A stretch of 64,000 nt of DNA. Source: Telopea speciosissima. Lineage: Eukaryota > Streptophyta > Magnoliopsida > Proteales > Proteaceae. Shown here one piece after another: positions 3,192 through 38,622 of the stretch. The DNA lies in assembly GCF_018873765.1 (NCBI RefSeq), contig NC_057924.1, positions 6,572,001 through 6,636,000 on the forward strand, written 5' to 3'. The position numbers and the translations under genes were made by a program. Each line of letters begins with the position of its first letter. Position 1 is the stretch's first letter. The notes below the pieces were generated by a model, which had not been told where the DNA came from, made no database searches, and saw nothing but the letters and a program-made list of their open reading frames with translations.

Positions 3192-4488
3192 GGGAAAATT
3201 TCACAGACACTCCCTAAAAGTATCTAATGTCTCATAAACTTATCAAACTTAGTCAAAATATCACAGACACCCCTGACGTTAAGCAGGATTAACCCCTAAG
3301 ATAAAATGTCGATTTTACCCTCTTAATTATTTAAATAAAAAATAGGTAAATGACACTTAAGGTACCATCTTCTTCCCTGTTCAGACCATTGGAGAGCTGC
3401 GGCATTGCGGCGACCATCACTCCATCTCCGGCGACCATCACTCCATCTCCGGCGACCATCATCATCCACCTGCAGAAAATGAAACAAAGAAAATGTAAGT
3501 GAACTGGGGTTCTGTAACCCATTTTTCTTGGATTTCCATGCTCCCAAAATTAAAGTGGACGGATGGGTTTTCAGGGAGAGAGAGAGAAGGGGATGGAGGG
3601 AGGAGGAGTGAAAGTGGAGCAGATGGGTTTTCACAGTGATTTATCGGAGGGATCATTACCATCTAAGTAAGCCGATGTAAGCAAAGGTCCGATCCCAATC
3701 AGATTAAGCTTATCAGAAATGGCTCCTAGAGCTTGGGGTTCCAGGGCATCGAACGTGTTCACCAGGACCCATGGCTTCTTGCCTGCCTCCGCCTCCGCTT
3801 TTTCTTGTTCCAACGTCTCAAACTGTTCTTGAAACGCTTCAAGAGCCGATTTGTTGTGGTCGTCGTTTGATTCGAGGAAGAATGAAGACGATGCAGGTGA
3901 TGGGGCGACCTTCCTCGGCGAGGTTGGCAGCAAGGTCGGTAAGGAACTTTGAACCACTGGTTCTGAGTTGGGACAAGAAATTGGAATGGGCGGCGTCATG
4001 GGGTTTGAAACCATCGTCAAATCCGTCAGAGAAAGGGGCAAAGGTTAGGCCGTCGGCGGCGGCAGAAGTATTTTGGAGCATGCGGCGGTGGGCGGATAAG
4101 CTTGTTGCGAAGGTGACACGAGCGCCAGTGAGAAGGAGGCGCTTAGCAAGGGGCGTACCCATACCCTCCACCTCCACTTGATTATCGGCCATGGTTTTGG
4201 GCCTAGGACGACGACGCTGCATTCTGTTCATCGACGGTGAAAATGATGAACAAAGAGAATGAAATCTGAATTTGGGGTTTTACCCTTAAGGGTATTATGG
4301 AGATTTCACATGTAAGGGTAATTTCGCCATTTAAAAAGAATTAACAGATACTTAACTGCAGAGACTAACAGAGCGGACTAAGTTGAAATAAATTCATAAA
4401 TATAGGGGGTGTCTGTGACATTTTGACCAAGTATGATAAATTTATAAGATATTGCACACTTTTAAGGGGGTGTCCGTGAAATTTTCCC
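3192..4488. mobile_element. Pack-MULE 1 (carries UGT fragment)
   Basis: A 1,297-bp element has long TIRs. The left end reads gggaaaatttcacagacac and the right end, reverse-complemented, gggaaaatttcacggacac; similarity extends for about 150 bp inward, through a second block with tcacagacacccc. The flanks tttataatt (left) and catataatt (right) match at 7 of 9 positions, as expected for an aged 9-bp MULE target duplication. No transposase frame is present, so it is non-autonomous. It contains part of a glycosyltransferase gene on the minus strand. Confidence 0.85.
3636..4231 (-). pseudogene. Captured UDP-glycosyltransferase N-terminal fragment (UGT75-like)
   Basis: Read on the minus strand, the first block contains PLAKRLLLTGARVTFATS, SAHRRML and LTFAPFSDGFDDGFK, the N-terminal acceptor-side sequence of plant family-1 UDP-glycosyltransferases of the UGT75 type. 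A second block in another frame has ALEAFQEQFETLEQE, VLVNTFDALEPQAL and LNLIGIGPLLTSAYLDGN, which is the linker ahead of the donor-binding domain in the same family. The catalytic C-terminal half with the PSPG motif is absent, so no active enzyme is encoded. The fragment lies wholly inside Pack-MULE 1, which indicates transposon capture. Confidence 0.85.
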
Positions 4489-6238
4489 CATATAATTTAC
4501 ATTTTTTCTTTTTTTGTTTGTTTGTGAAAATTTACATCTTTTCCTCACTAGAAGAAGCAGCAAACCTATTTTTAATCATCTCTTCTCTCCTGCAGGCTTT
4601 CAACAAACGTACACGATTTATTTAATTACATTGTTTTTTTTAGCGTAACCAAAACAAACAGAAACCGAATTTTTCAAACCAAACTTAGACGAACTTTGTA
4701 TCCGAACTTTTAAACCATAGACGAACTTTTCCCAAATTATACAAACATATTTAAATCATAATGTTTGCCGCGTAACAGAACTTTTTAAACCCAGGTGAAT
4801 GCTTTCCGTTTTGTGCAACGAAATGTAAAACCGAAGCCGAATTTTTAAACGATCCGAACTTTTCGGACCCACTTGGACGAATTTTAGATCCGAACTTTTT
4901 AGGCCATAAACGAAATTTTCTCCGACCTTTTCAAATTACAACCGAATTTTACAAGCATATACGACCTTTTTCATCTGGACTTTCCAAACCCTATACGAAC
5001 AAAATCGATCCCTCACGCTCACATTCATCTTTCCACTCTTTTGATATTTTCTCTCCTTCCCTGATTATCTCTTTCCTCTAACTTGCATTCTGCCATTCTT
5101 TATTGGTTCGGCTCGAGATTTTGGGCACAGGTAAAAAGAACTTTTTCATGCCTTTTCTCATTAAATTGTGTTAAATCAGGTGCTTATCGGTAGGGTTTGA
5201 TAGATCATTAAGATATTGAGAGAGATTTCTTTCTTTCAAAAGTTATGGTTTGACGCAAGGAAGAAGACTAGTCGTCCTTTCTCACGATTCCTTCTTTGTC
5301 TCTTACTTTCACTCTTCTTGTTTCATATATGCCATTCCCCTTCTATTGAACCGACTTCTGCATAACTGCATTAGGATAGGCTAGTAGTATTAATGGACTA
5401 GAATGGGTTGTGTTGTTCACGACAGAAAACTATCTCCATCTCCATGGCTAGAGTTGATAGTATAACTGATTGGCCTGATATAGGGTTGAGTGGAGCAGGA
5501 TATGGGGATGGCGTAGTGGTGAATTGATGAGGAACATCCCATTGGGATTTTGAGCCTTCGGGCTTTCAAAAAGATATCAGACTTTATATGAGAATTTGTC
5601 AATAGTTTGATTAGGTTTAGGGTTGGATTGTAATTTTGTTTATAGTTCCCCCCTCCACCCACCCTAGTGATGGGTTGAAATAGAAAACCCACTTGGTAGG
5701 TCAAGAATCCATCCAATTTTGTAATTTTTTTTTTCGTTTGTAATTAGAAGTCAAGAGGCAGAGTTCAAGCAGGTGATTTGAGGTGTGAAACTCCTAGTTC
5801 AAGCCACCAGATTCTTATTTCTAGCGGTAGTATGTACACTGTTCTTGCTTTGGTTTTAGTTCTGTTGTTGCTGTATGCTTCTTACAACTGTTGGTCTTGC
5901 TGCTGTGCTTGCCTATAACAATTTATTTATTTGCAATTCAGGTCACGTCATGCTTTTTGTTCTAGTTTAATTTCTACTTTCTGTTATAGCCAGGTTGAAT
6001 ATTGTGATTCTATTTTTAATTTGTGTCCATATTCAATTCTTCCTAGCATACCCATTTGCTCTGCACTTTATAGATATCATTGTCTTTCCATTAACAATCA
6101 TTCTATGGGCAACAATCGCAACAAATCAATCCATTTCCAAGGTTCTATTTTATAGACCAGACTATGCAATACCTTAACTGCACCATCCTAAACCCTAGAT
6201 ATCTCAATCTTTAAGTTGCCAGCCCTTCCAATCATGTG
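4489..6238 (+). other. Upstream segment duplicated at 9946-11990
   Basis: This stretch matches 9946-11990 in order. Shared strings include ctcctgcaggctt, acttgcattctgc, ggctcgagattttgggcacag, ttgacgcaaggaagaagac and ggcagagttcaagcaggtg. It looks like a promoter and leader rather than coding DNA: pyrimidine-rich blocks are followed by a possible donor (gggcacaggt). A stretch with many gaacttt and cgaactttt motifs (4640-4990) is an irregular AT-rich repeat. No convincing protein is encoded. Confidence 0.6.
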
Positions 6239-6465
6239 GATGGCCCATCCAAACTGTAAGAAAGTTATTGAAATGGCATGGCAAAGTTCTCATACTGTTC
6301 AGTCATGTTTAAGATTTGTCGGAAGCTGAAAGTTGTTCCACATTGCCTCAAATCTTGGAACAAGACTGAACTGAATTTGATTATATTGAGGACCACATAA
6401 AATGGAGCTTGAACTTATCCGAGGTAACCCCCCTTGATCTTTCTTCCATAGAGAAAGATAGAGAG
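6239..6465 (+). mobile_element. LINE ORF2 scrap (B copy)
   Basis: Translation gives HPNCKKVIEMAWQSSH, then RKLKVVPH and KSWNKTE, the arrangement H(P)..C..V...AW...KLK...LK.WNK seen between the endonuclease and reverse-transcriptase parts of plant L1-type LINE ORF2. A frame break lies near the middle. The same scrap is in the duplicated segment at 11991-12150, so it predates that duplication. It ends abruptly at PMD sequence near 6466. Confidence 0.6.
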
Positions 6466-6932
6466 GAATGATTCCCTCTTCTCAGACCCAATGGTTCTCC
6501 TTATCCACTGCACCCTGGGGAGCCCAGGATGGGTCAATGGCAAAAATGTAATTCAAACTCTAGATTCAAATTGAAGCTTCCACATGTGGAGCTCTATTCT
6601 GAAACAGATTGATAATTTCGAATGGCGGCCTTACGTATTTGGTGTTAACAATTGGCGATGCTCTTCCTTCTACAAGGAGAGGGAAGAGATACTACATGAT
6701 AGATGTTTGCTCGAAGATGATGAATTGCAATCCTTTGTTCGATGTATAACGAACTCTGAGCTCGTTGGTTTAAATCATATGGAACAGTATCAGCCACATT
6801 GGGTGGCGAGACAGTTTGGGATCGATCAAGATCTTCCAAGACATATTTCCCCAGCTAATTTGAACTGGAAAAATGCTTGGAGTAGCTATGATCGCCATGT
6901 GAGGAGCATTCACTGTCGATTCATAGGGGTAC

Positions 6933-8175
6933 AATGTGTTGCGTGTGAAAACCTCCGTCGCCCGGTTCGCCCACGGATGAGCCTACAAAAACCGAGTGAG
7001 CACAAGAGAGCCGGTGTGGCTCCGGCCTAGGACTCTCCGACGCTCAAGTCAGGTCTCCAATGCAACAGCGTAACAGCTTATAAAAAGTTAGATAAGCGTT
7101 TGAGCTCCATACCTGAGTATTTATAGAATGAGGTGAGGCGGTTGGAGGAGTCCTTGTATGGTAAGAGTCCTCTGTTGGTAGGGCTCTTCCGCGCGGGGCG
7201 GAGTGGAGAGTTATTTTCGGGGTCGGACTCTCACTAAGGTAAGAGTCCTTATTGGAGTGTAACTCCGTATCGCAGTGGGGATCGTAGCTCGATTCTTATC
7301 CCGTGATTGTCGGGGCATGCTGGCGTGGCTCCGTGATCCCCGGTGGGCCGTTATTGTTGCTTCTGGGGAGGGCTCGGCCTCGGACAACCGTGTCCTCAGT
7401 GCTCGGCCTCGTGCTCGGCACAATTGGCGTGGGAGCTGCGTCCAGGAGTATATGTGCTCGGCTAGGCCTCGTGCTCGGCCTATGGCTGACCTGGGCGGGC
7501 TCGGCTCATGGCTCGGCAGGCCTAGTGCTCGGCCACTGTGGTGCTCGGCCTCGGGCGGCCGTGGCCTCAGTGCTCAGCCTCGGGCAACCGTGTCCTCAGG
7601 GCTCGGCCTCGGCGCTCTCCTTAAGCGGTCCTCGGCCGTACTACCGATTAGGGAGGGCTCGGCTCAGAGCTCGGTGGAGTGAGTGTTCGGCCATGGTGCT
7701 CGGCTCGGCACTCTCCTTAGGCGGTCCTTGGCTGTATGGCCGATTAGGGAGGGCTCGGCTCAGAGCTCGATGGGCCTAGTGCTCGGCTGTGTTGGTGATT
7801 AGGGTGATGGCCTTCTCCTTCGGAGGTTGGTTTGATGCCGCACCGTTTGGCTCGGCTCGGTCCTCGGACTGGACTGGGGCTTGACTAGGCATTCGTGCTT
7901 AGCGACGATTGCCCTTTCGACCGTGCTTGGTACGCTCGGCTCAGTGCTCGGCGACTGCAATGCTCGCCCCTGGTGCTCGGTCGTATCTAGTGGGGTGATT
8001 ACCCCCTGGTGTTCAGTTTGGAGTCCCTTGGCTCGGTTTGGCCGGGTCGGTCTGATCCTCAAGTTTGGCTCGGTTTGGCACTGTACCATTTGTGCTCGGC
8101 TCGGCCCTTGGGTTCAGCCTCAAACCGTCCATGTGTCACTTTTTGTCAGATGGCGATTCTATGACTCATCACAGC
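6933..8175. mobile_element. GC-rich insertion of about 1.24 kb, class uncertain
   Basis: Copies C and D read straight through from the aatg to the cagagagatac of the PMD gene, while copy B has about 1,240 bp between these points. The insert is far richer in G and C than its surroundings. It could begin with TG (tgtgttgcgtgtg) and end with CA (gactcatcaca), like a solo LTR, but the flanking bases do not give a clean target duplication. No coding frame is supported. It could be an LTR fossil or a DNA element. Confidence 0.55.
7370..8112 (+). repeat. GC-rich ctcggc minisatellite
   Basis: Irregular repeats of gctcggcctcg, gctcggctc and gtgctcgg fill most of this stretch. They create long open frames on both strands (around 7275-7779 and 7799-8222) made of repetitive Ala, Arg, Gly, Leu and Ser. 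These are composition artefacts. The repeat lies inside the insertion in PMD copy B. Confidence 0.7.
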
Positions 8176-12638: not shown

Positions 12639-14403
12639 ATTCCCCGCTCAGAGAAAATTACATGATTATCTACTATTGGGTTTCCCTTAACAAAACTGTC
12701 CACCTTAGGTTTGAGTTTACAAAACTACCCAATTTTGGGTTTAAGCTTACAAAAGTAACCAAAATAGTGATTCTCCTCCACTTTCTTACATATTTTGACC
12801 CTTTTGCCCCTAATTGCCTGTACCAGCCTTGTGTCACCAGTCCTATCGTCTTCTCCATGCCACTGCAGCTGCATCAGCAACCACCACCGCCACTTCCACC
12901 ACCCCACCCTGTCGTCTTCTCCGAACACCCACCCCTACTGCCCCGCTCCACCCTGGACTAGCCATGTCAAACCCATCCCTGTAACATCTCACAATCCAGT
13001 CCACCGCAAACCGCCCCTGTGCACCTCCATCGCACACACCGCCCCTGCCATTCACGCCCCCACCCCTATGCGACCACCATTCCTTTGCGTAGCCCCACAC
13101 CCCCACCTCCCTTCCCTGCAATCTCGCCACCCCGCCACGCCATTCCTTGCTACCCCCACCCCCTGTAATCCTGCCCCACGCTGCAACTACCCCTTTCCCC
13201 CACCCAGCCCAGCCCCTGCAACATCCCTACCCCTCTCCTTAATCTCAATAGCAGTTTCCTGGTTTTTGACGCATTCATGCGGACCAAATATACGAGGCCT
13301 CTACCTGTTATATGGCATGGACAATTTGGTTTATGATTTACTCTCTTTACACCTTTTCAACTTCAAATTAACTGACTATTTATTTATTTTTGTTATTAGT
13401 AAAGCTTGTTGTGGAAAGTCATGATATTTTGGGCGATTCACGACTTGAACAAGAAGAAAACCCACATGAGAGCCTTTGGGATAACCATCCTCCAGAGGAT
13501 CTTAGTAGGAACACGGAAAATAGGCCCATGAGAGGTCTTCGTGTTCATCCTTTTCTTGAGGAAACGAAGGTCCTTCATTATCCGCTGAACGAGACCACCG
13601 GAAAGGCAGATCTCCATGTCGCGGGTTACAGAAAAATTCCATCGCTAGGATCGAAGCGATGTGGACAAGCATGTGATGGTGTGCATCCACTACCATTCTT
13701 TGAGCGCAAATCCCTGACCCTGAAACCATCTTCCTCTATTGTTGTTCATGAGCGGGGCTGGCTGCAATGGCAGGGCGGTGACACACAGAGGCTGAGGATG
13801 GGGTCGTAATTTGCCGAGGCGGTGGGCACTGGGCGCTGGTGAAACCATAAAATGACAGCGACAAGGAGGGAGATAGGGGTGGCAACTGTTGGGGAGAGGT
13901 GTAGCAGGGGCGGGAGGACTTGAAAGAGATAGGGACGGAAAAATGGGGTTTGTGGGCTTGGGGTGGAGCCGTAGAGGTTATCGGAGAAGGGGAGGTAGGG
14001 GGTAAACTAGTAAAAAAATGTAGGATAATTTACACATATCACCCCTGAGGTTTGATGAAAGGATGATTTTACCCCTCAGTTTTGGAAAATTCTGCGTATC
14101 CCCCTGAGGTTTACAAACGGTAACAAATAAACCCATTCCGTCAGTTTATGACTAACACTGTTAAAATCAAAAGATAAAATGACAAAAACACCCTTCAAGA
14201 AAGAAAAAAACCTACAACTCATTTTCCCCAAATCGATTTGGGGAAGATAAGCTACATGTATCTCCATATATCTTTTTCCCTTTCTTCTTCCTCTTCTTCT
14301 TCTTCCTCCTGCAAGCCCACTTGCTCCCACCCCTCTACAATCCCATCCATGCAAGTCACAATCCCCACTCTCCTCCACCTGAGAAACATATTCGGAGAAC
14401 CCA

Positions 14404-14658
14404 TTGATCAAGCAGTATAGTGCGGAGTACTGGATCTTGGGTGATTTGATGACTACCGAGGAATTTAGAGAACGTTCTTTTGTGAGGAGGGTTTTAAATG
14501 TTGCGGAAGCTGATGTTATATTTGTGCCGTTCTTTGCGACCCTTGGTGTAGAAATGCAATTGGGTATGGCGAAGGGGGCGTTCAGAAAGAAAATTGGCAA
14601 TGACGATTATGAGAGGCAGAAGCAGGTGGTGGACTTGATTCATGGTACTGATGACTAG
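14404..14658 (+). pseudogene. Captured GT47 exostosin fragment, second part
   Basis: The frame includes QYSAEYWILGDLMTTEEF, EADVIFVPFFATLGVEMQLG and NDDYERQKQVVDLI. This is the early exostosin-domain sequence of plant GT47 glycosyltransferases of the arabinosyltransferase ARAD-like group. The family acts in the Golgi on cell-wall polysaccharides. The part lies downstream of the SLNYGLLDKYW segment in normal proteins, but here it points the opposite way from that segment (15061-15335). It ends soon after with a stop at 14656-14658. Confidence 0.8.
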
Positions 14659-15060
14659 AAATGGTATGGTGGCAGGGACTCCGTCTAGAAATATGATTTT
14701 GTTTGTTCATTTTGCTTTCATTTGTTAGTGATCTAGGATTTGGGTTTAGTTAGGGTTTTCTCTGGTGATGTGAGAGTGCAATTTGATAAGATTGTGGGTT
14801 TTATTTTTTCAGATCAAGGAAGGGCAGCAATAGCTCCCCAAGGAGATTTATTATGAAAACAAAGAGGGGGAGAGTGCAATTTGATAAGATCGTGGATTTG
14901 TTGCCCTAGATTTGTTCTGTAAGTGAATCTAGTTCGCTCTAGATCGTGGGTTCATTTGAAGTTCTGTGCAGTAACAACTGCTCCAATAATCATACTTAGC
15001 TTCCCTTTCAAAGAAAGCTCAGAGTGTAGTTCATTGTCGACATCACTGCCGAGTTTGGAA

Positions 15061-15335
15061 TCACCTTTCATGGTCCAATATTTGTCTAACAAACCGTAAT
15101 TGAGTGATCTGGGGAGCTCTGCAACGTAGACTTTGATGCATTGGTTGGGATTTTGGGGGATTTTGCTAGAGGAAATGAGAGGTGAAGGGGGAGTAAAGTA
15201 ATGTTTATGTGTTGTGAAGAAGAGGAAGAAGAGAGAGACTGATAGAACACAGAGAATGGAGAATGAGAGTAAGAGAGAAGGTATAGCACAGGGGAGAGTT
15301 GCTCTTTGCAGCCATGGTTCTCTGTATGCCTTCAA
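15061..15335 (-). pseudogene. Captured GT47 exostosin fragment, N-terminal part
   Basis: On the minus strand the frame encodes a hydrophobic signal-anchor (SLLLSFSILCVLSVSLFFLF) and then IKVYVAELPRSLNYGLLDKY, the start of the lumenal exostosin region of a type II Golgi GT47 enzyme. The frame continues into non-homologous sequence. Together with 14404-14658 it shows that one source gene, or two related ones, supplied both pieces, with one inverted. No ATG opens this frame at the expected place. Confidence 0.8.
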
Positions 15336-15748
15336 TGGCAGATTTTGGAACTAGAAGTATCAGGTCGAATGAAAGGGTTTTGAAACCTGCAATTCATCTT
15401 CCCCAATCGATCTGGGGAAGATGAGTTGCAGGTTTTTTTTTTTTTTTCCCCTTTTTTTGTAAGGGTAATTTTATCAGTTCACCTCTTATTTTTAACACTA
15501 AGTCATGAACTGACGGAATGGGCTTATTTGTTACTGTTTGCAAATCTCAGGGGGTTACGCAGAATGTTTCAAAACTAAGGGGTAAAATTATCCTTTCGTC
15601 AAACCTCAGGGGTGGTATGTGTAAATTACCCAAAAATGTAAACAATTGAGGGGTGGAATACTGAATTGGACAGTTTTGTAAACTCAAACCTAAGATAGAC
15701 AGTTTTGTAAAGGAAAACCCAATAGTAGATAATCATGTAATTTTCCCC

Positions 15749-16727: not shown

Positions 16728-18789
16728 TATGACCAGATTTGGGAATCGGACCAGAACTGACCCAGTAAGAACCAGAATCACCCACACATTAATTATTGAT
16801 TTGATTTTGAATCTAAGTTATGAAACCACTTAGTAAATGGTTCAGGTCGTTTTGGGAAGGGTCTTCCAATGGTTTCAAAATCGAAAGATCAATTTGGAAC
16901 TAGCTAGAATTGGAATCGCCAAGACCTATTCAAAACCTACATTTTATCATATATTTGGTGTTGTTGATGTTAATAAATAAAAAAATGCCAAAATAATCAT
17001 CAACAACACTGTTCTTTGATAACATTTTTCAATTTTTTTTGAACTTAGGTTGGTTTCCTCTCAGTCCCACTGTTCTTTGGTTGTCCCACTTTGAAGGGTC
17101 TTATTCACTTACATATTTTGGATGTATATATGAGGCAAGGTCTTTCACGTAATGTAGGATTTCTTCCACTGATCTGTAAAAGGGTTGGAATCCTTTAAGC
17201 TTTACTGGGTTTTCTGATTTCTTTCCATTGGGCTTTGTTATTGCTGGTTCTTTTAATCTCTTCTTAGGAAAGGTCTGACCTATCACAATACTAAGCAGTA
17301 AGACTGTAAGAGAGATTATCTAGTTCACAAGATCAATTTTTCGTTTTAAGTTTGCTGATTCTCAAATTTTTATTGTAAGTTTGTTGATTCTCTGCGAATC
17401 GGACAACTCAGATCTGAATTTTAATTTTTGTTTGCAAATTAAGAAAGAGAAGGGAGGAGAGTTGCAGGAGAGAGAGAGGAGGGTTGGGTTGCCGTCTCCG
17501 AGAGTTGCAACAGAGAGAGAGAGAGAGGATGGTGACCAATACTCCACGACAATGGAAGATCAGTGGTGATGATCAGCCCTCCGTTTTGGGGTGCCGCCAG
17601 AGTGGGAGAGGGAGGTTAAAAGGCTTGAAGGACCATATCCAACTCAGATGTCAACGATAGCATGATCAGCCATTCGAAGCAGCAGTAGCAGCAGCGTTGA
17701 GCTTGAAATTGATCAACTTGAAATGTCATCGATAGAAGCATCAGCGCTGTTGGGGAATATGCATGGTACATGGGGATTTGAACCGATCCTCTTAGAAACG
17801 AATCCAATTTTGGATCACCTTCTCCACCATTAATTCCTTGTGCGCTCTGTATTCCTTCAATGAGATAGTCACCATATCAAATATTTGGTTTCGAGAGATA
17901 TAACATCGATATGGTAAATCAGAAATTTGGCATCGTTACATTCAGTAGTTTCCACAATCGGTAGATACGAGAGATGGTAGTAGATTATTTTGGGGAAAGG
18001 TCACTAAATCTTGTTTGAGTTTTTAGTTTTTTTCCGCTGGAAACAAGAGAGAAAGAGGTTGGGTTGGTTCATGTCCGAGGAGACGATAGATGTTGTGCAG
18101 ATGATTTTGGGGAAGATGTGTGATGCACAATTACATTTTAACCCCTGTTAACAAAATTTAGTTACAATTCTAGGGCTTTTTTGACTTTTCGGCAATGAAT
18201 GTGATTTCACTCAATTATTCTTATAAATCTATTTTCAATTGTGTCCTTAATTGTAGTTTTAAGAGGGTAGTAGGTGTCTTGTTATGTTTGGATAAATAAG
18301 ATACCCTTGTTACGTTAATAATTCTTTTTTTTTAATTTATTGGTATTATTAGTAATGAACATTTTCTTTTAAGCATTTAGGTTACTTTTTTATGGAAAAT
18401 TTATATGTATCTCTCCTGAGGTATCACATAATTACAAAAACATCCATCAATTTTAGATAATTACTCATGCCCCTTACTTAAAAAAAAAAGGAGTAAATTA
18501 CTCCCCCCTCCCCTCGAATATGCTCTAATGACAAACCCCTCCCCTGGGTATTGCGTAATGACTCTCCCCTCCCTTGCATTAACAAGATTCTATCAACTGT
18601 ACCCATTCCGTTAAAAATGACTGTTAAGTGTTCTGAAAAGACCATATTACCCTTTGAAAGTTAAGTTTTAGTAAGAAACCATATTACCCTCTGAGGATTA
18701 AGTCTTTCGAAAAGACCATATTACCCTAGTGTCTTAAAACATTCTACTCTTTCTCTTTTCCCTATCGTCTTCAAAGCTGGAAAAGAGAA

Positions 18790-19150
18790 ACTCGAATTGT
18801 GAAAACAGGAGAACAATCGGAAGACAATGTCCAATAATTTGCTTTTGTTCCCCTGTCATCTTCTTCTCCCCAACTTTCTTCTCCTGTTCCTTCTCCTTCT
18901 TCCTCTTGCTGGTGAGATCGACCGAACAATCGATGTCTTCGATGACGATGACGGACTTGCGGAGGTCTCATTAAGAGCTTTCGCAGCTCCGTATTGTTCT
19001 TCACGGTGGTGAGTTCGAGGTCATAGATGTTGTAGTTCAAGAGATTTGCCATGGTGGCGATCATGGTGGTCTTTCCGTCACTGGAGGGCCGTACAGCAAG
19101 TAACCCCTCTTCCAAGCTTTGTCGATCTTGGGGTAGTAACGCTCCAATTT
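18790..19150 (-). pseudogene. Captured AAA-ATPase core fragment (BCS1-like)
   Basis: The minus strand encodes GKTTMIATMANLLNYNIYD and LELTTVKNNTELRKLL, the Walker A end and following helix of plant mitochondrial BCS1-like AAA-ATPases. In the next frame it has VIVIEDIDCSVDLT (Walker B) and a Lys/Glu-rich loop. The usual GPPGTGK Walker A start is altered (VRPSSDGKTT), and a frame change separates the two motifs, so no active ATPase is possible. It continues from the N-terminal piece at 19657-20145. Confidence 0.85.
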
Positions 19151-19656
19151 TATGAGATTTTTTAATGAGAAGATAGTAAGTTAGGTTTATGTAGGTTCGA
19201 GTGGGAGTGTTAATCGCATATAATTCCCTCGAATAAGTTAGCTTCCTTCTTTTTTTCACATTTGAGATCAATGCGGGTGAGTTGGTTTTACTGTTTAGCT
19301 TTCATTATTTTAGAACACATCATCTTATGTTGAGTTAATGATATTACAATCTTCTTCAGGGAATGAAATTCGGGAAACATTGCGAGCCCTTCAACCGAGC
19401 AAAACAGAAGCACTCTCAAGCACGATCGCTTGCAAACTTTCATTGCCCAATGAGACATCATCTAATGCTCTTCCCAGTAGACGATGATTGCATCTCACTG
19501 TCTAAGTCTTTCCGAAGCACTTCTCAAAGAAAGTTTTGCCAAAATTATCGATGATATTCCCAAGCCTACCTTTGCCACCATCAAACCCTTGCCCCCAAAA
19601 AATTTCTTCCAATGAAGAAACTCTCACTCTTTGCTCCATCATCTCTTGGATGTTCT

Positions 19657-21554: not shown

Positions 21555-22460
21555 GATGGATCGAAGAGATCAGATGGAGCTGGCTATGGAGTTATAGGTC
21601 GGGACTATAATACCCTCTTTCTTCCTTGGGTGGAGGTGCTGATCTTACCAAGTCGATTATTTGATCAGACTCTACTCAAAGAAGTGTGTATTTGAGGTGT
21701 TGTTTAGTTCTATTGTCTAATGAAGTAGTATAGAGGTAGATCCACATTAAGTCAAAACCATTTTAAATGTGAATTCTTTGCTAGCTCTGTTTGTTTCAAC
21801 GTAAAATTTTACCTGAAAATTTTTACTTCAAAAATTTCACTTCAAAAAATTTTAGATATAAAATTTTAAAAGTTTTTGAAAAGTGTTCCAATATTTGTTT
21901 TTTGATAGAATTAAACAATAGAACAAGTTTTCAACATGTAAATTTTTACATTTTTTTTTGGGTAGATGTAAACTTTTACATTCGCAAAGTAAAATTTGCT
22001 ACACAGGTAAACTCTTACGTCGAAACAAACGGTGCTTACGAAGAAAGTAGTCTTAAAGGCCTCTCTCACACCTCGTCTAATGGTGGTTGCTGAAATGGGG
22101 GTATATTAGAATCAAGGTTTACTCGAACTCAATGTGCTCTTCAATTTATTACTAAGAAAACACGAGATCCATGGGAAAGTTGGTGGCATTTGAATCTCAT
22201 TCCTATCTTTTTGGACATACAGTTTGTCTTTGTGTACAAATAAGCGATTTGGACCGCATATCTTATATCAAGGCTGTAATACTTCTCTTCCTAGCTATTT
22301 GTTGATTTCACTTCGCTCCTTCAAGATCTCAGCAATGCTATTGCTAGAGATGCTTTTGGGTTCTTGTATTTGAGAACGTAAATCTGTTGTAAATGTAATC
22401 TATTCTTTTTATTATTAATTCAAATCCTTTCCTTTCCTCAAAATAAAATAATAATAACAA
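21555..22460 (+). mobile_element. LINE 3' end, interrupted by a MITE
   Basis: Bases 21555-21690 encode INIDGSKRSDGAGYGVIGRD, the start of the RNase H domain found at the end of some plant L1-type LINE ORF2 proteins. After a miniature element (21788-22036), the match resumes with TKKTRDPWESWWHLNLIP and then, in shifting frames, LSNAIARDAFGFLYLRT before a stop and an A-rich tail (aaaataaaataataataac). The 5' part is absent, as usual for LINE copies. Frame breaks show it is dead. Confidence 0.6.
21788..22036. mobile_element. MITE, GTTTGTTTC family (copy 1)
   Basis: The left end is gtttgtttcaacgtaaaatt and the right end, reverse-complemented, gtttgtttcgacgtaagagt. The interior is AT-rich with repeated ttcaaaaattt and acattttt motifs and has no gene. 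A second copy is at 22490-22663 and a short relative at 54510-54580. Confidence 0.7.
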
Positions 22461-22489
22461 TACTGGGTTAGACCTATTTCTCCTATCTT

Positions 22490-22663
22490 TGTTTTGGCGT
22501 AACTTAAAAATTTTCACTTCAAAACATTTTAGACATAAAATTTTAAATGTTGAAAAGTGTTCTAATATTTGTTGCCATGAAAAAACATATATTAGAACAC
22601 TTTCAACATGTAAAATTTACCACGTAAAAATTTTCAGGTAAAATTTTACACCGAAACAAACGG
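22490..22663. mobile_element. MITE, GTTTGTTTC family (copy 2)
   Basis: The sequence folds back on itself: cacttcaaaacattttag...aagtgttctaatattt on the left pairs with atattagaacactttcaaca...gaaacaaac on the right. The ends are tttgttttggcgtaac and, reverse-complemented, gtttgtttcggtgtaaaatt. It is non-coding. Confidence 0.65.
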
Positions 22664-22815
22664 TGTAAAACACTTAATATGTGACAATCTAGGCGAAGTG
22701 GGAGAATATTAGTTGAAGTGGCCTTAGTTGCCACATAAGCCCGAGTGATTTGGTTAGTGTAACTCCCACAACTTCCTTGATGAGAGGAGTCGAAGAAGTT
22801 ACACATAAAGTGAAA

Positions 22816-24411
22816 GGGTGAGTCTGTTTGCAACCAATCAGGTTACAAACAGACTTTGTAACCGGACATTATATACCCTTAAATGTAGTTGATTCCAATT
22901 TCAATAGATAGGTAAATAAAGTAATTTCGTACTTTTTAAGTATCAGGTTGTTTAAATATGTTAAATCCATTTAGTTAAAGGGTAGAATAGGAACTCCGTA
23001 TACCTAGCCCCTAAATCCCAACTCAATATTGTTTGATCGAATAAACTTGCCGGAGCGATCCCTCCCCTTGGCCACCATGGATTCAGGTGAGAAGAATGGA
23101 TTCTACCAAAAAAAAAAAAAAAAGGGTAAGAAGAATTAGAAGAAACATTGCCCAAATTATCGTTTGTTTCGATCACCGATTGCCATTTCTTTTCATTCTC
23201 TGTTCCACTTTTTCAGAGCTTGTGGTCAAGTTTCTATCTTTGAAGGTCTTCAAATCTCACAATTTTTTTTTTTTTAAATTTATGTAGGCCATTGAGGAGA
23301 CTGAGTAGCAGCCTATTTTGCTAAAGTGAACAAACAAACAGTTGAGTTGCTAATGCAATGGAACCACCAGTGGACGTCTAAAATCCAAATCAGCAACAGC
23401 ATTGGCCCTCAAGACAGAAAGAAAATGATGATACCCAGTTTGAGGGTCTCGAAGAAATCGGCGGAGAGGGCCGAGAATGGGAGAGACCATTGATCTACCG
23501 TAGTGGTTGCGTTGTTACTACAGGTGAACCACCACTACCACTGCTAATTATGTTGAAAGCATGAGCAGAAGAAATATTTAAAATACTAAAATCTTGAGGT
23601 TGCTCGCTGTTAATTATGTAGGCTAGGTGAAATTGAGTGCTCGCATACTCAGGAATCTAAATCTTTCTAAATGCGAAACCTATTGGAATTTATTTCTTCT
23701 TTTTTTTCTGCTTCTCTGGAGGTACAGAAATTTTAAGCATGAAGAGAAAAGCAGATACATAAATGGGAAAAGGGGATTTCAGTCTATTGATTTCCCCATC
23801 TTCTTTTTATGACATATCTTCTCTGCAAGTTTCTGTAAACTTATAGGAAAAATCCATGAATTCATCGGTTGTGGAAGCTGTCTAAGTTTGAAATGGAGAG
23901 TAACAGGAAAAATTCTTACTGATATCATTCATTGGGTGCTCTCAACGGTTCCTTCTACAACAGACGCCGTCACGCGATCTCTCTTCAACACCACGGTTGT
24001 CAGGGAAGGGGGTAGTTGCAAATGGGGTTGGGGCAGGCAGCAAACAGAGGCAGGGGTTGGTGGAGTCAAGGAAAGGGTGGGAGACAGAGGAGGTAATGTG
24101 TAGAGTTGTACATGGATGGGATGGGAAGAGGGAGCCAACACCGGAGAGGGAGAGGAAGTTACAAGAAACCTGCATATTCCGGCTATTACCGGCGAGTCTA
24201 GCAAGTTACTTTCTTTCTATGCCATGTATATGACAATAAAATTACTTTAATGCCCATATAATAGAAACTTTTAACATTTTTTCCTACCATCTACCAAAAG
24301 AGAAATGACAATTTAATCCATAATGTGACAATATCAATAAATGTTTTGATGAGCATAAAAGAGAGGTTACATCTTATGTTGTAACCACCTTGGTTACAAA
24401 CAGCTTTTCCC
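22816..24411. mobile_element. MULE-like element 6 (nested in foldback)
   Basis: A 1,596-bp insertion is bounded by the exact 9-bp duplication aaagtgaaa (22807-22815 and 24412-24420). The ends are gggtgagtctgtttgcaacc and, reverse-complemented, gggaaaagctgtttgtaacc, with gttacaa blocks following; the TIRs are short (about 50 bp). The interior has frames such as MDSGEKNGFYQ (near 23078) and a Pro/Ser-rich minus frame at 23929-24204, neither recognised. Part of the inside may be captured host DNA. Confidence 0.85.
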
Positions 24412-25025
24412 AAAGTGAAATACTTAAAATCCCCTAATTCCACCGAAAATATTTAGTTTGCCCCATTGAAGACTCAAGATTGAGTGAAATTCGGTAAGTT
24501 TGAGAACTGAAACACTTAAGAATCCTCTAATTCCAAACAGTTAGGCATATGTTGCAATAATAGTATTGATTATATTGAAGGAATCAAGGGGAAACCATGC
24601 ATAGCGCGAAGATGGTGGATCATTAACTACATCGGAAAACAGCATAATTTCCATGTTTAAGGGTGCGATCCTCAACCATATTTTTTGTGAATCAAATCAA
24701 GTACAGGTATTTACTTATATATCTTTTCACCAAACAAAAAATTACCAACCAATGTTTACTTGCTTAGCAGAAATTGTTTGAAAAAACTGAATAATTTTAA
24801 TTTTTGGAATTATATTAAAGCAAAATGACTATCATTTAGATGGGCTGCCAAATTTTTACATCATGCCTATCAATTCCCCATCTATCAAATGGACAAACTA
24901 ACAAATCATCCTGACCATTTAGGGTTTCTATTCTTCTTAAAATTCCCCCATCTCTATAAAGATTTTCTCTCAAAGAAAAGCCAATAAACTAAAGGGTCAT
25001 CTAATGTGGAATTAAATAGATGGCC

Positions 25026-25215
25026 AGCTTTCAGTGGGGAAAATTATCTCCTCTAGTTTGCTGTCCGGTCCAGTTTCTCAGTTCCTCTAAAAGGGGGTGG
25101 TGGACCCCACCTGAGCAAAGTATTTGGGCAGGGGTAAGGTGGTCATTCTAGCACCCCCTTGTTAGAGGAACTGGGGAATTGGGTCAGACAGAGAACTGGA
25201 GGTGATAAAGATCCA
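25026..25215. mobile_element. Small MITE
   Basis: Loosely inverted ends (attatctcctctagttt and, reverse-complemented, ctttatcacctccagtt) enclose 190 bp with cagttcctctaa / ttagaggaactg and ggaccccacctg segments. It is non-coding and sits inside the foldback element. Confidence 0.5.
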
Positions 25216-25514
25216 GTTTTCTTCAATATGTGAATGAGGAACTGCTACAAGATAATAGATTTCACTTCTCAAACTTACCGAATTTCACTCAAGCTTGAGT
25301 CTTCAATGGGGCAAACTCAATATTTTCGGTGGAATTAGGGGATTCTTAAGTATTTCACTTTGTGTAACGTCTTCAACTCCTCTCATCAAGGAAGTTGTGA
25401 GAGTTACACTAACCGAATCACTTGTTAGCATTTGCGAACAGTTAGGCTTATGTGGCAACTAAGGCCACTTTAACTAATATTCTCTCACTTGGCTTAGATT
25501 GTCACGTATCAAGT

Positions 25515-26698: not shown

Positions 26699-28922
26699 AT
26701 GCCGATTGAAGATCTTCTTACAGAAGAGAGAGAGGAGAAGATGGTATCTTCAAGCAGTGGGAATCCAACATTCAGAATTGGAAGATTCCTCAGGCCTTGT
26801 GCTGATTGTCCTGAAAAAGCAGCGTCACTGCCTCTTGTTCCTCTATTATCTGAAACGATTTCTCAAAATCTTACAAAATGGCCTTCGGAGGTTCTGTTTA
26901 GGGGTTACAGACAGCCACAGAGAAAGTGGAAGCAATGGGTCGATCGTTTGGCGAAGCATCATGAACCTACATGGAAGAAAGCTGGTATTTACGATGCAAT
27001 AATTAGTTCCACTTATGAAATCCAAAAAGATTGAGAATTAGTTCTTGGGCTCTCAGAATTTTGGTGTTCAGAGACTAATACTTTCGTTTTTCCATGGGGT
27101 GAGGCCACTGTGACATTGGAGGATATTTTGATTCTTGGTAGGTTCTCTGTTCTTGGACAACCTGTCACTACTCCTCTCATAGAAGAAACTTTGAAGAAGA
27201 TAGAGGAGGAGTTGAGTGCAGAGCACAAACAGTTCAACGAAAACAGAGCTAAAAAGGCGAATCATTTGGCTTGGATCAACCGATTCATGGGTAGAAAGGC
27301 CGTGGGAGAGTCTGAGCTTGAGCATGTGGCTCTTCTAGCCTTTTGGTTGTCCACATACTCTTTTCCTTCTCACCCTGAATCAGTAATAGAGAAAAATGTC
27401 TTCTCTGTCGCCATTCATTTGTCGATGGGGACACGGATAGCTCTTGCACCCGCAGTTCTCGCCAGTCTTTACAAGGACCTTCGGTTCATATATGAGCAGG
27501 TACATGTTGCTAAATCTGCTTCTTTTACTGTTTGCTCTCCGTTTCAGTTGTTACATATGTGGGCTTGGGAACGATTTCCTCTTCTCAGACCGAGTGATTC
27601 TCCTCATCCCCTGCACCCTGGGGAGCCCAGGGTGGGTCGTTGGCAAAAATGCAACTCATACTCTAGATTCAAATTGAAGCTTCCACATGTGAGGTCTATT
27701 CTGAAACAGATTGATAATTTCGAATGGCGGCCTTACGTATCTGGTGTTAACAACTGGCGATTCCCTTCCTTCTACAAGGAGAGGGAAGAGCTACTAAATG
27801 ATGGATGTCTGCTCGATGATGATGAATTGCAATCCTTTGTTCGATGTTTAAGGAGCTCTGGGCTCGTTGGTTTAGATCATATAGAACAGTATCTACCACA
27901 TCGGGTGGCAAGACAGTTTGGGATCGATCAAGATCTTCCAGGACATATTTCCCCAGCCAATTCTAACTGGAAAAATGCATGGAGTAGCTATGATCTCCAT
28001 GTGAGGGACCCGAGGCTGTACATTCGCTGCCGATTCATAGAAGCAGAATGCAGAGAGAGATACTCGGATTGGTGGAAGCAATCTATGTTAGTCCGTAAAG
28101 AGGCGATCAAGGACCTTTTGGAGAAAAGGGAGAATTCATAGAAGGATTTCAAGGTAAACCCGCAGGCTGAAGCTTCGAAAATGAGAAACCAGGAACAGGA
28201 ACAGAGCATTGAACACCTGTTGGGATTTACTCCCAAGGAAGTCTCTTTCAGCAAGAGTAAGCCTTGTGAAATCAAGGTAAACCCACAGGCTGAAGCTGTG
28301 AAAATGAGAAACCAGGAACAGGAACAGAGCATTGAACACCTGCTAGGATTTACTCCCAAGAAAGCCTCTTTCAGCAAGAGGAAGCCTTGTGAAATCAAGG
28401 TAAACCAGCAGGCTGAAGCTGTGAAAATGAGAAACCAGGAACAGGAACAGAGCATTGAACACCAGGAACAGGATCAGAGCATTGAACACCTGCTGGGATT
28501 TACTCCCAATAAAGCATCTTTTAGCAAGAGGAAGCGTTGTGAAACAGAGAGATATTCACATTGGAGAAAGCAAACCTTGTTTGGTGGAAGGAGGACTGAG
28601 GAACAGAGTAAACCGAACAGCTGTGGTGATATTCCACCAGGATTTGCTCCTAAGAAAGCCAATTTCAGCAAGGGGAAGCGTTGTGATATTGAGGAGGACA
28701 AAGATCCTGAGCCCATTGCAGCATCAAGGAAAAGAAAAAGAGGATCAGTTGAGGCACAAAAACCTGTTACTGTTAGGACGAGGAGGACCCCGAACAAGTA
28801 GGTTTTCCCTTTCCAAAGCATTGGTGCCGGCTGAAATGGAACCAAAAAGTGAAGAAGAAGAAGAAACAAAGGACCTTATGCCCATGTGGAATGATGCTAA
28901 GCCGCTAATGATAATTGATTAA
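26699..28922 (+). pseudogene. PMD gene copy D, near-full-length with in-frame stops
   Basis: From ATG 26699 to 28801 a single frame covers a whole PMD protein, broken only by TGA at 27032-27034 and TAG at 28139-28141. The core has FRIGRFLRPC, LVPLLSETIS, KAGIYDAIISSTYE, FVFPWGEATVTLEDILILG, ELEHVALLAFWL, FQLLHMWAWERFPLLRP, FEWRPYVSGVNNW, DDELQSFVRCLR, RVARQFGIDQDLPGHIS and ERYSDWWKQSML. The TAG aligns with AAG in copies B and C, one base change. Near 28790 the tail shifts frame; the second frame continues to 28922 (TKDLMPMWND). The tail has a 123-bp repeat. Copy E suggests the same domain order. Most likely a recent pseudogene; assembly error or an expressed truncated protein are alternatives. 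Confidence 0.85.
28152..28480 (+). repeat. Coding minisatellite in PMD copy D tail (123-bp units)
   Basis: Units starting at 28152, 28275 and 28398 each encode about 41 residues: KVNPQAEA, then MRNQEQEQSIEH, LLGFTPKKASFSKRKPCE. The third is expanded by an inner EQ(D)QSIEH duplication before its LLGFTPNK end. The period is a multiple of three, so the frame is kept. Copies B and C have only one unit; copy A has one PPGFTPKK unit. Confidence 0.85.
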
Positions 28923-30946: not shown

Positions 30947-30952
30947 TCCACA

Positions 30953-31599: not shown

Positions 31600-33114
31600 G
31601 AGAAAATTACTTGGACACCCCCTATACTATGGCCATTTTGCTTACGATTACCAACGTATGAAACAATTACTTGACACCCCTCGAAACTTGACGGTGTTAG
31701 TCTGCTGTTAGTGTTTAAATGAAAATGTCTATTTTAACCTTATCACCTATTCAATAGAAAACAATAAAATTAAAATTACCAAATTACCCTTCTTCTTCTT
31801 CTTCTTCCTGCAACCTAAAAAAAAAAAAAGAGACAGCCATGACTGTGAGTGAAGATACTACGAGAGATTGAGACCTGAACTCTGCGGTTCCCTGATTTTG
31901 GATTCAATCTGAACCCAGAATAAATTGCACCAAACTCAACGGTCCCTTCCCACTTATATTGGAAACCACAAACGCCACTCGGTCTTAGCTTCCAAAACAT
32001 TTCAATCTCTCTCTCCCTCTATTGTTTTGTTTTCCATGTTCTACATTATATATACCTGTAGATTAAATGTTTGCACTGAACTCGTGCAATGGTTGCATTT
32101 GTTTATTCTGCCTTTTCTCTCTCACTTATAATGGGTGTAATTTTATGGTGTAAGATGTTTATTGAATATCTGATGGAATCTGCCTTTCTCAGTTGTTATT
32201 GCCCGAGTCCTTGAGTCTTGAATTGGGGTAAAACCAGGGTTTAAAACAAGAATCGGTATCTGAATAGGGTTCAGCCTATTCCAATATGATGCTAGAATTT
32301 GTTTAAATTGGCCAGATTCTTTTTGCCTGAACCCTAGAAAACCTGTATGGATCATTTGCTCTAGAACAACAAGAATCAGGATCAGGTTCGGCCGATTTTG
32401 ATTTGCCTTCTCGATTCTGATTTTATATCTATGGGTCAAACAGGAAAAAAACGGAATGAAGCTCCAACCCCTGGACATGGGTGTGGGACTGTGGGGGTTT
32501 AGTTTCATCCATTGCTTGATCCGTTAGTCTCCGAGTAGTTTAGATGGAATAATAGAAAATAGATTCAGAGGCGTACGAGATCTTCAATCGTTTATTGGTA
32601 GAACGATCTAAGCATGAATGCGAGGAAAGAGACAAGGAAAGCAGCGGTGACCGATGCGGAGACGGCACCGAGTCCGGCACTAGAAGTAGGACTTGGAGCC
32701 GGAGCATCAGCAGCGATAGCATCTCTAATGAAGGAGAAGACAGCGAGGACGACTGCCATGAGAGCCACAAACAAAGCTTTTATCTTTGATTCCGATTCGA
32801 CTTTTCAGGCTTAATCTTCGAGATGCCCTAATGGTTTATGAAACAGTAGCCATGGTTGCTGGTTTTTTTTTTTTGGGTTGCAGGAGGAAGGAGAAGAAGA
32901 AGAAAGAGAATGGGGGCAAATATGTCACTTCACTCACCTTAAGGGTAGTTTAGACATTTACAAAATATTTAACCCATGGTAACGTTGACTGACTAATGGA
33001 CAGGGCTACTTGAAAGAAATGGTAAACCGCAGGGGGTGTTCAAGTAATTGTTTCAAATGTTGGGAAGACTAAGTAATTAGGCCATAGTACAGGAGGTGTC
33101 CAAGTAATTTTCTC
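31600..33114. mobile_element. Pack-MULE 7 (carries arabinogalactan peptide gene)
   Basis: A 1,515-bp element has ends gagaaaattacttggacacc and, reverse-complemented, gagaaaattacttggacacc; further matching blocks are actatggcc and gaaacaattacttgacacc / gaaacaattacttgaacacc. The flanks ctttttata (31591-31599) and ttttttata (33115-33123) agree at 8 of 9. It lies inside a hAT-like element. The inner DNA includes a captured small cell-wall protein gene on the minus strand. Confidence 0.9.
32592..32774 (-). pseudogene. Captured arabinogalactan peptide (AG-peptide) gene
   Basis: The minus frame encodes a signal sequence (MAVVLAVFSFIRDAIA from the ATG at 32757-32759), a very short mature part ADAPAPSPTSSAGLG with the Ala-Pro/Ser-Pro pattern used for arabinogalactan glycans, and a hydrophobic end (TAAFLVSFLAFML) of the GPI-anchor type. 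This is the full plan of a plant AG-peptide. Codons upstream of that ATG (SKIKALFVAL) also fit the family, but the normal start codon is missing, so the signal peptide would be short. The coding part is otherwise whole. It lies inside Pack-MULE 7. Confidence 0.75.
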
Positions 33115-34295: not shown

Positions 34296-36240
34296 TACGG
34301 GTGTCAATTTAAGACTAGATTTGGGAATCAAAAAAACCGACCCAATAAGAACCAAAATCACCCACTCATTAAGTTATCGATCTGTTTTTAAATCTAAGTT
34401 TTGAAACCACTTAGTAAACAGGTCGGGTCATTTTGGGACGGGTCTCCCTATGGTTTTGAAACCGAAAGATCAATCCGAACGGAAAAGACCTATTTCCAAC
34501 TTACATTTAATCATATATTTTTTCCCTCCTGAAAATGCCCATTTGTCCAAATGCTCGTTTACAATTTTTCTAATTGTAAATTCTCCCCTATTTTAAACAA
34601 ATTATAGCAGTTTGGTCTTGTCCGTTAATTTGGAACATTAAATGTTAGTTTTAGGAAATGTAATGACCAAAATACCCTTTTGACAAAAACCAACCAAAAT
34701 TAAAAAATAAAATGACCAAATTACCCTCATCTTCCCCAAATGGTTTAAGGGTTAAAACTGAAAATTGAAAAACACCTAGATCTATCCAAAAAACCATCTT
34801 TTGCAAAGACTCCCAAGGACGTGAAGATCCAGGGGATCTGGTATGCTCAACTCCAGTAGAGTGGGGTTTCTTTGATTTGGGATTTTTTAGAACTTCCCGT
34901 CTTCAATAGTTCAACCTCACCAACCCTCTTTCCTTTTCCTTTTTGTTGTAAAATCAAGAAAAACAGTGGATGTTCAATCGTTTTATAGAAGTCTAGCAGT
35001 CTCTTTCAATACACACTAGCAACACCATTGATGTTGCAACTACAACCTCAACCAAGCACTGTCTGTGTGTGGCTGGAAATGGGTAAAAAGAAAAAGATTA
35101 AAGACCATTATGAAATCAAAATGCATCAGCAGCATAATGCAATCCACGGAAAAGATAACCCATTAACAGATCTTCAAGAAATCAAAATCAGCCCATGATG
35201 CAGACTACACAAGAGGGATAACCCATTAATGGATGATTTAAGTAATTTAGTGATAGAAAAACAATTTCCAGCTAACCCTTCTACAGTAGGACGAAAGCTG
35301 AACTGGGTCACCATAAATTTTTCAAATTGGTCCCCAATTCAATAAATCGTGAGGAGCCCTTGGCTCTACAAATTTAAATAGAAAACAAATAAATCATGGA
35401 GCATACAAGCCCATCTTCCCCAATTTTGTCTGCTGCTGTTTTTCGATTATCTTACAAACTTTGAAACATTCAGTTTCCTGTTTCCCTCCAGAAAATTTCC
35501 CAGTGCTCTGAAGATCCCTTCTCCAGTACTTGGAACCCATTTCGTTGCTGAGGAATGAAATTCAAAATATTCAGTTTTGCTTTCGTTCGGGTATGTTAAA
35601 AGCTAGGAATCAATTGGATTATCAGGAATTTATTCTAATTTTCGTTCGGATTTTTTATTCGATTGTTCCATGATTGAGGAGAACCTTTGTTTATGGTCTT
35701 TCATATTTTTGTTTGTGGGGTTTTTCTCTTGCACTGTTGCTGTGTTAGCTTTCTCTATAAGAGTTCAAGTAATAAAATTTCCAGCAATGATCTCTTTGAG
35801 ATTGCACATGGTTTTTTGATAGATCTAGGGTTTTTTCAATTTTCAGTTTCAGACCCTAAACCATTTGGGGAAGATGAGGGCAATTTGATCAGTTTATTTT
35901 TTAATTTTGATTGATTTTTGTCACAAGGGCGTTTTGGTCATTACATTCCTTAAAACTAACGTCTATCATCCCAACTTAACGGACAATACCAAAATGCTAC
36001 AATTTGTTTAAAATAAGGTAGAGTTTACAATTACAAAAGTTGTAAGGGGGCATTTGGACAAATGGATATTTTCAGGGAGGCATTTGTAAAAAACCCTTAT
36101 AGTTATATGCTTATAGATGGATATTTGGTTATTTGTGTATATGGATGGATATTTGATTATTTTTATGGTTCAGAATGAATATTTAATTATTTATATATTT
36201 AAGAATAAATATTTGATTATTTGTATATAGAACAAGGGTA
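34296..36240 (+). repeat. R1 repeat copy with intact left end, host to MULE 8
   Basis: It starts tacgggtgtcaatttaagac, the left hAT-like end missing in the other copies, continues with gatttgggaatc and ggtttcaaa-type blocks to 34522, and resumes after MULE 8 with tatgcttatagatggatatttgg to about 36240. The right terminal bases (ttgacatccta) are absent. Confidence 0.55.
34523..36095. mobile_element. MULE-like element 8
   Basis: TIRs of about 300 bp are clear: left ctgaaaatgcccatttgtcc, right (reverse complement) ctgaaaatatccatttgtcc, then ttgtaaa, aacaaatt.tagca, gtccgttaa and a last block tcttccccaaatggtttaag / tcttccccaaatggtttagg. The outermost bases are unclear and no 9-bp duplication was found. 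The centre (34820-35800) looks like transcribed 5' leader DNA (aaattcagttttgctttcg) and includes a 75-codon frame at 35687-35914; the source gene is not recognised. Confidence 0.75.
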
Positions 36241-36410
36241 GGCACCCAAACTTAGGTTTTAACCAAAAAAATTAAACTTAGGGTGGATAGGATATTTCCA
36301 AAGAAATTTCCACTCAAGTAGCTATCATTTAGGACTATTTTTTAGTGTTTCCAATTCTATACCTGAAAAAAAAATAATGAAACTGTTTATAGATTTTGTA
36401 AGCTTGTTTG

Positions 36411-36779: not shown

Positions 36780-36786
36780 CTTGACC

Positions 36787-36920: not shown

Positions 36921-37396
36921 TTTTTGTAGCTCATCAACTGCGCTAGGCAGCTGTGTTGTTGAGGTTCATATTTATTTATATACTTATAGACGGATATTTG
37001 GTTTTTACAAAAAACAAAATGACTATTTGGTTATTTGTGTGTTTATGGGATGAATATTTGATTATTTGTCTACTTAAGAATTGATATTTAATTATTTATA
37101 TATTAAAAAAATAAATATTTGGTTATTTTTATGTGTAGATAAAAAATTTTAGAATTTGAGACACTATAATAGTACTTAGAATCAAATAGGAACCAAAACC
37201 GGTCCAACTTTACCCCACCTATTATTAAATGGTTTTGGATCTCAATAATAGAACCAATTAGAAAAATGGACCGGTTCTATTCTTGATTTGTATTAGTATC
37301 AAGTGCAACCAATATCGATATGGGTACATATTGGCCAATACGAAATCGGATACCTCAATCCATGTAACCATCACTGTTTTTCAATGATTTTTTTTT

Positions 37397-38622
37397 GGTT
37401 TGTTTTTTCAAATGCCCCTTTCAAATTGCCCATGTGTATAAATGTACCTGTGAAACTTTATTATTTTCAATTACACCCCTATTTTTCAAATTTTGTAACA
37501 TTTTAGTCCAATCCAATAGTCTAAGACGTTAGCATTAATTTGAGAGAATCTAACGACCAAAATACTCTTATGATAAAAACCCACTAAAATTAAAGAGTAA
37601 AGTGACCAAATTGCTCCCGAGACTTCAAGGTTTAACCTCTTTTTTTTTAAACCATTATTTGCAGAAAATAAAACATGGGCTGATGGTGTAAACCTTTGCA
37701 GAAAAGTGGATCATTGGATCTATTATTAGTTTGAAACTGTGAAACAAATTCTAGATTATTAAGTTGAGGCTCCCAAATTTCCCGCTTTACCATCTCCTGA
37801 CATGGCGTCTTTTGGATCTGATTCTGTGAAATCGCCACCTCCCTCTCCCCTCGTTAGCTAACTGAGGCCATTTACTGTCAAAGTTCACTGCCGGGTTGTG
37901 GTTTGGAATGTCGATGTTACTAGCACTCTAAGCGTCGACAACAAAAAGTTTGTACCCTTGGCTGGTCTAACCTTGCCATGTGAGAAGAGAAATTTTATCT
38001 CATCCCTAATTTTATGTCTCAGAGTACCAATAAAATATCTTACCCTAAACATCTAGGGTTCCTTCAGCTACCAATCTTGAACCTTTGGATTCACCCTACC
38101 AAGCTTGGCTGCATAACTCAAACCACAGAAAATAAGCAAGTCCAACGTATAACAAACTCATGTTAGAGCTACAGAGAGAGGAGGAAAAAGAATGGGAAGG
38201 CAGAGATGAGATGGGTTTCATTGGTTTGTAGCTTTTATCTGCCTAGAGATTATCACAGCTATCAACAAGTCCATGAAAGCACTTCTTTGCACCATCATCT
38301 TAGTACTAACTAAGATGGGCATGACGGTAGCCATACTGTAAATTTTCCCCAAATCGATTTTCAGTTTTAAATCCTAAACGATTTGAGAAAGATGAGTGCA
38401 ATTTGATTATTTTACTCTTTAATTTTAAGAGATTTTTATCATAAGGGCATTTTAATCATTAGATTTCCTGAAATTAATATCAAACGTTCTAGACTAATGG
38501 ACTAGATTAAAATGTTAGAAAGTTTGAAAAATAATGGTGTAATTAAAAATAGTAAAGTTTCAGACGTACATCTGTACAAATGCGCAATTTGAGGAGAGGG
38601 CATTTAGAAAGAAAAAAACCCA
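37397..38622. mobile_element. MULE-like element 9
   Basis: The left end (ggtttgttttttcaaatgcc) and the reverse-complemented right end (gggtttttttctttctaaatgccc in pieces) lead into blocks tcaaattgc.cat, gaaactttattatttt / gaaactttactattttt, and caattacacc / taattacacc, about 230 bp in all. It is related to element 8 (gaccaaaata.tctt, cataagggcattttaatcat). No target duplication is clear in the T-rich flank. Near 37800 a frame starting MASFGSDSVKSPPPSPLVS runs into a stop; its source gene is unknown. Confidence 0.65.

Follow-up and report, generated by a model that had tools for sequence, protein, structure and literature searches.

Probable non-autonomous Mutator-like elements, five with pieces of host genes, crowded beside PMD genes in Telopea speciosissima

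Why should nine transposon-like elements lie crowded together beside a small group of PMD genes? The question is raised by a 64,000-nucleotide stretch of the Telopea speciosissima genome (NC_057924.1, here C9:6572001-6636000), referred to below as the window; the genome amounts to 823 Mb in eleven contigs, C1-C11, of 57-88 Mb. A preliminary description had listed nine elements with terminal inverted repeats (TIRs) resembling those of Mutator-like elements (MULEs), five of them with pieces of host genes, and had found their location beside PMD genes suggestive of a link with transposon control, chance accumulation being its plain alternative. The PMD genes do form a local cluster of high-scoring genes at C9:6.550-6.613 Mb, which holds 5 of the 117 PMD matches scored in a genome search. 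The reading that we favour, at a probability of roughly 0.86, is that the window holds nine non-autonomous MULEs that represent about eight or nine TIR families, include five Pack-MULEs or Pack-MULE-like elements, and built up here without any role for PMD (Table 1).

All nine elements were recovered, close to the starts listed previously, by an inverted-repeat search combined with alignment of the element ends. End-alignment scores ran from 61 to 357 for eight of the nine, far above 2000 base-shuffled end pairs (top score 32); G is the exception, its ends matching over about 20 bp, a length typical of short-TIR MULEs. Among 2000 random pairs of real window sequence the 95th percentile was 29, the 99th 104 and the maximum 354, the last being high because some pairs fall on the nine elements themselves. 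That the ends are mostly unrelated and represent several families held in general when they were compared, with two exceptions: C resembles D, and I resembles J, whose TIRs are 74% similar to those of I. An apparent similarity between the ends of D and E was discarded as an artefact, the 120-bp stretch used as the left end of D extending into E.

Target-site duplications (TSDs) of 9 bp with at most two mismatches, the standard applied in PMC3310237 and PMC3903597 (here and below, published statements are those of the available portions of the papers cited), flank six of the nine elements (A, C, D, E, G, and H), the chance of such agreement at a fixed pair of positions being 0.002. The TSD of E in the window is almost wholly A; perfect 9-bp TSDs of mixed sequence flank three of its four full copies elsewhere, with none in L033 (L numbers designate the loci compared). 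Copies of G, with the same bounds as the window copy, have TSDs that match at nine of nine positions in L066 and L070 and at eight in L067 and L068, and those of H match at nine positions in L046 and L047, eight in L049, and seven in L048.

That none of the elements has a transposase was borne out: among 93 open reading frames (ORFs) of at least 55 aa within the elements, none matched a transposase model in a Pfam scan (E<=0.01). Four models were matched, AAA_assoc, GT47, Rhv and Adcy_cons_dom, of which the last two are taken for chance. MULE transposase (PF10551) has at least 150 matches elsewhere in the genome (150 of 827 candidates were scored); none of these 150 lies in the window, and the nearest on C9 is at 8.548 Mb, 1.9 Mb away. 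The elements would be mobilised in trans by such transposases encoded elsewhere.

A search for source genes located candidate parent loci for the pieces held by five elements, A, B, C, E and J, and in each case the matches stop short of the TIRs, as in Pack-MULEs. Of the gene identities proposed earlier, UDP-glycosyltransferase (UGT), GT47 and AAA-ATPase stand, AG-peptide is refined, DHHC acyltransferase finds no support, and a piece of a CDT1 gene had been missed. The UGT pieces of A match C2:83909956-83910712 at 86-90%, within a 549-aa open frame (UDPGT, E=1.7e-27). The GT47 pieces of C match C5:69326752-69327432 (GT47, E=2.8e-17) at 94-97%, and GT47 is matched within C itself (E=2.2e-5). 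The AAA-ATPase label is based on AAA_assoc in E (E=2.2e-17) and on AAA together with AAA_assoc in the family copy L034, rather than on C8:8755179-8756023, where the two pieces of E have matches of 92% and 87% about 216 bp apart. Between these pieces, the middle of E is 83% similar to L036 (C10:52.518 Mb), a match flanked by a CDT1 frame, whose score (E=2.2e-4) falls slightly short of the curated one, and by a CDT1_C frame (E=1.8e-13). C4 has another match, of 79%.

The piece in J is indeed arabinogalactan protein (AGP)-like, but it comes from a phytocyanin gene, of which it matches the AGP-like tail (C9:8241795-8242264, 87-93%), the frame at C9:8.242 Mb encoding a plastocyanin-like domain (Cu_bind_like, E=6.1e-16) followed by a Pro/Ser-rich tail. 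The DHHC label had been given without pairing of genes and elements and is taken here to refer to B, the element left over. No zf-DHHC model was among the Pfam matches of the 93 ORFs. A rough search for DHHC-type motifs, which covered 22 loci and the window as far as 39000, returned three DHHS matches in the window (3412, 3433, and 13072), all within frames that are repetitive or rich in His and Pro, together with a few isolated ones in L038, L039, L042, L058, L060 and L076; judged by eye, none has DHHC-domain context. B holds DNA that is 76-77% similar to two loci with open frames for Ribosomal_L13, L043 (E=3.3e-14) and L044 (E=2.6e-14); its own frame over this DNA has no Pfam match. The Pfam scan of the ORFs of H identified no host gene. 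The right part of D (20363-21345) has partial relatives at C8:3079996-3080657 (84%) and C3:2053693-2054105 (77%), and three frames of the former gave no Pfam match.

Host-gene pieces would be taken up at the DNA level, and the inverted arrangement of the GT47 pieces, with the AAA-ATPase/CDT1 chimera, suggests repair or template switching. In every sister copy compared, three for C and four for E, the captured ORFs are disrupted.

Copies elsewhere indicate that many of these elements have been mobile; the counts are lower bounds, at most 40 candidates having been scored per genome search. C has at least three other full copies (94%), each with its own perfect 9-bp TSD, E at least four (90-96%) and H at least four (90-92%), while I has at least three near-full copies (91-92%) and G at least three (89-92%) plus two interrupted ones (pieces 86-95%). 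Because full or near-full copies at 89-96% lie elsewhere, these five elements moved as units; among 28 flanks of copies of C, E, and H, matches between loci numbered two only (49 and 113 bp, 81-82%). With 12653-14022 of B as query, the search returned an interrupted copy at 92-93% identity and two long ones that cover 1146 of the 1370 bases at 82-85%. For A and J no full copy was among the genome matches scored, and their TIR families are present elsewhere. Copies diverge from one another by 2-9%, and the families therefore moved over a range of times. When up to three mismatches were allowed, a genome-wide count for the 30-base end of family C gave 1749 occurrences, 869 of them forward and 880 in reverse, against 0 for the control pattern; at two ends per element this would correspond to roughly 870 elements, or about one per Mb. 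Sampled family members are spread over all eleven large contigs. The group in the window would have accumulated through independent insertions, some of them nested (C inside B, E inside D, and G inside F), with PMD genes playing no part.

Table 1. Features of the window, numbered from its first base, with element classes as proposed here; percentages are identities between repeats, and fractions give matching bases of the 9-bp TSD.
Feature	Position	Inverted repeats or ends	TSD	Remarks
A, Pack-MULE	3192-4488	TIR 90 bp, 86%	TTTATAATT/CATATAATT, 7/9	
A, UGT pieces	about 3638-3887, 3888-4149			
B, MULE-like	12653-15745	TIR 82 bp, 93%	none in window	split by C
B, DNA resembling ribosomal protein L13 genes	about 13488-13736			
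C, Pack-MULE	14023-15631		AAAAATGTA, 9/9	nested in B
C, two GT47 pieces	about 14388-14678, 14998-15373			opposite orientations relative to source gene
D, MULE-like	18394-21345	TIR 48 bp, 85%	CTTTTTTAT/TTCTTTTAT, 7/9	split by E
E, chimeric Pack-MULE	18491-20362	TIR 140 bp, 98%	AAAAAAAAG, 9/9	nested in D
E, AAA-ATPase pieces	about 18871-19139, 19683-20026			
E, CDT1-gene piece	about 19158-19674			
F, additional structure	22672-25514	arms 70, 62, 85 bp, 91-96%		ends unlike MULEs; hosts G; not in preliminary description
G, short-TIR MULE	22816-24411	ends match over about 20 bp	AAAGTGAAA, 9/9	in left arm of F
H, non-autonomous MULE	31600-33114	ends GAGAAAATTACTTGGACACC	8/9	
I, non-autonomous MULE	34525-36096	TIR 273 bp, 87%		left terminus lost
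J, Pack-MULE-like	37394-38623	TIR about 221 bp, 81%	no clean TSD	
J, pieces of AGP-like tail of phytocyanin gene	about 37770-38131, 38195-38301			
Partial PMD copy	6584-7027			among transposons; runs into GC-rich stretch (6-8 kb, 51% GC)
PMD copy with in-frame stop	around 26984-28078			among transposons
PMD ORF, 721 aa	39131-41293			in window PMD cluster

The structure F stands apart from the nine: its ends had no relatives among the 40 candidates scored, and its repeated palindromic core (25035-25223) alone recurs. An AT-rich inverted-repeat structure at 21789-22661 (arms of 52 bp, 85%), likewise absent from the preliminary list, stops 10 bp before F.

Several observations weigh against the reading of nine non-autonomous MULEs gathered without a special cause. 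B and I have no 9-bp TSD in the window, and J is bordered by T-runs only, which were not counted. No autonomous element with one of these TIRs was identified when family matches were compared by eye with transposase matches; one relative of J, at C3:35975712, has a transposase match about 4 kb away, and by estimate about one such case within 10 kb would arise by chance. H has a 121-aa frame that lacks a Pfam match and is open in two of the four sister copies. Nine elements in 35 kb exceed the averages published for other plants (PMC3310237), and five of nine with gene pieces is a higher proportion than the 1.6-9.4% of MULEs that carry genes in four genomes (PMC3310237, Table 4), although the definitions are not the same and this window was selected once it had been read.

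The crowding bears on the rival that fares best, namely that the locus is a MULE-rich hot spot unrelated to PMD, for instance one of open AT-rich chromatin or one in which MULE ends are preferred targets. Inverted repeats are unevenly distributed, all 20 arm pairs of at least 40 bp (some of them simple sequence) falling within the first 38.6 kb, with no pair returned by the same search for the last 25 kb, and the three nested insertions of the window all lie within 144 bp of an end of the host element (post hoc probability 0.012, with lengths entered manually). Against this, copies of B, E and I dispersed in the genome are interrupted internally, and a preference for nesting near element ends is not claimed; nor do the sampled families cluster with one another, different-family pairs numbering two within 36 kb (2.6 expected) and seven within 100 kb (7.0 expected). 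How unusual nine elements would be depends on the total and on local enrichment: published MULE totals are 1,576 for Arabidopsis, 28,041 for tomato, 30,475 for rice and 12,900 for maize (PMC3310237, Table 4), and an assumed 30,000 would give about 0.2 windows with at least nine under uniform placement, 33 with twofold local enrichment, and 420 with threefold. A hot spot is judged unlikely, and chance accumulation, the plain alternative from the outset, stands.

It is more doubtful still that some of the nine, B, I, and J, are TIR transposons of another kind. Their want of TSDs in the window speaks for it; the ends of all three, however, recur as pairs elsewhere in the genome, and TSDs matching at eight of nine positions flank one relative of B (L038, with ends 2 bp further out) and one of I (L056), while none was found for J.

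The rival that gave the locus its interest, in which MULEs are drawn to, or sheltered by, the PMD cluster or its chromatin and the crowding is tied to a role of PMD in transposon control, draws on the presence of both in this window and on the involvement of the PMD proteins MAIN and MAIL1 in transposon silencing in Arabidopsis (PMC7156037, PMC5418596). The suggested link did not extend to the genome: none of 254 sampled family members lies within 100 kb of the 108 PMD matches outside the cluster, where uniform placement predicts 6.7, and six lie within 250 kb (15.9 expected). Of the 150 transposase matches, 1 falls within 20 kb of a PMD match (0.9 expected) and 6 fall within 100 kb, a count that 20% of random draws reach (expectation 3.9). 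The sampled places were the best-scored ones, picked manually, and uniform placement differs from a matched null in that PMD matches lie mid-chromosome and the elements nearer chromosome ends. Because most PMD matches look transposon-borne and sit mid-chromosome, the test has little power where genic PMD genes are concerned; it counts against a link that is both strong and general, but not against a link restricted to genic PMD clusters. In addition, a silencing protein that acts in trans would give no reason for physical linkage, and we regard attraction or shelter by PMD as highly improbable. A PMD match (C1:55137385) and a MULE transposase match (C1:55148242) were seen 11 kb apart on C1, about one such pair being expected by chance. 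Just as improbable is the bolder proposal that genic PMD clusters or their chromatin are landing or survival sites for MULEs, that MULEs favour the ends of other MULEs, and that the locus is a workshop for chimeras.

The nine-MULE reading leaves knowledge of PMD genes unchanged. In tea plant, phased-siRNA loci are reported to include PMD genes (PMC10673657). The window offers a well-bounded example of MULEs shuffling gene pieces in a plant genome, in which an AAA-ATPase/CDT1 chimera is present in at least four further full copies, and it serves as a warning that an open frame in DNA of this sort may be a captured scrap and not a gene.

The elements themselves are of a well-known kind; what changes is their gene content, which is corrected, and the general PMD link, which is not supported. 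In two relatives of I, C1:65547943-65550112 and C6:45447649-45449224, additional TIRs lie next to one another, as in the tandem-TIR MULEs described in PMC3310237; L054 (C1:65546644-65551207) and the C6 locus carry several adjacent TIR copies with spacers of about 15-20 bp, whereas extra copies were not seen in the window copy of I. The group differs from the Pack-MULEs reported for rice, tomato, Arabidopsis and maize (PMC3310237, PMC8903248, PMC13317346) in its higher proportion of elements with gene pieces (five of the nine, over 35 kb), and it agrees with them in its long TIRs and 9-bp TSDs, in the absence of a transposase, and in the rearranged host-gene pieces between the TIRs.

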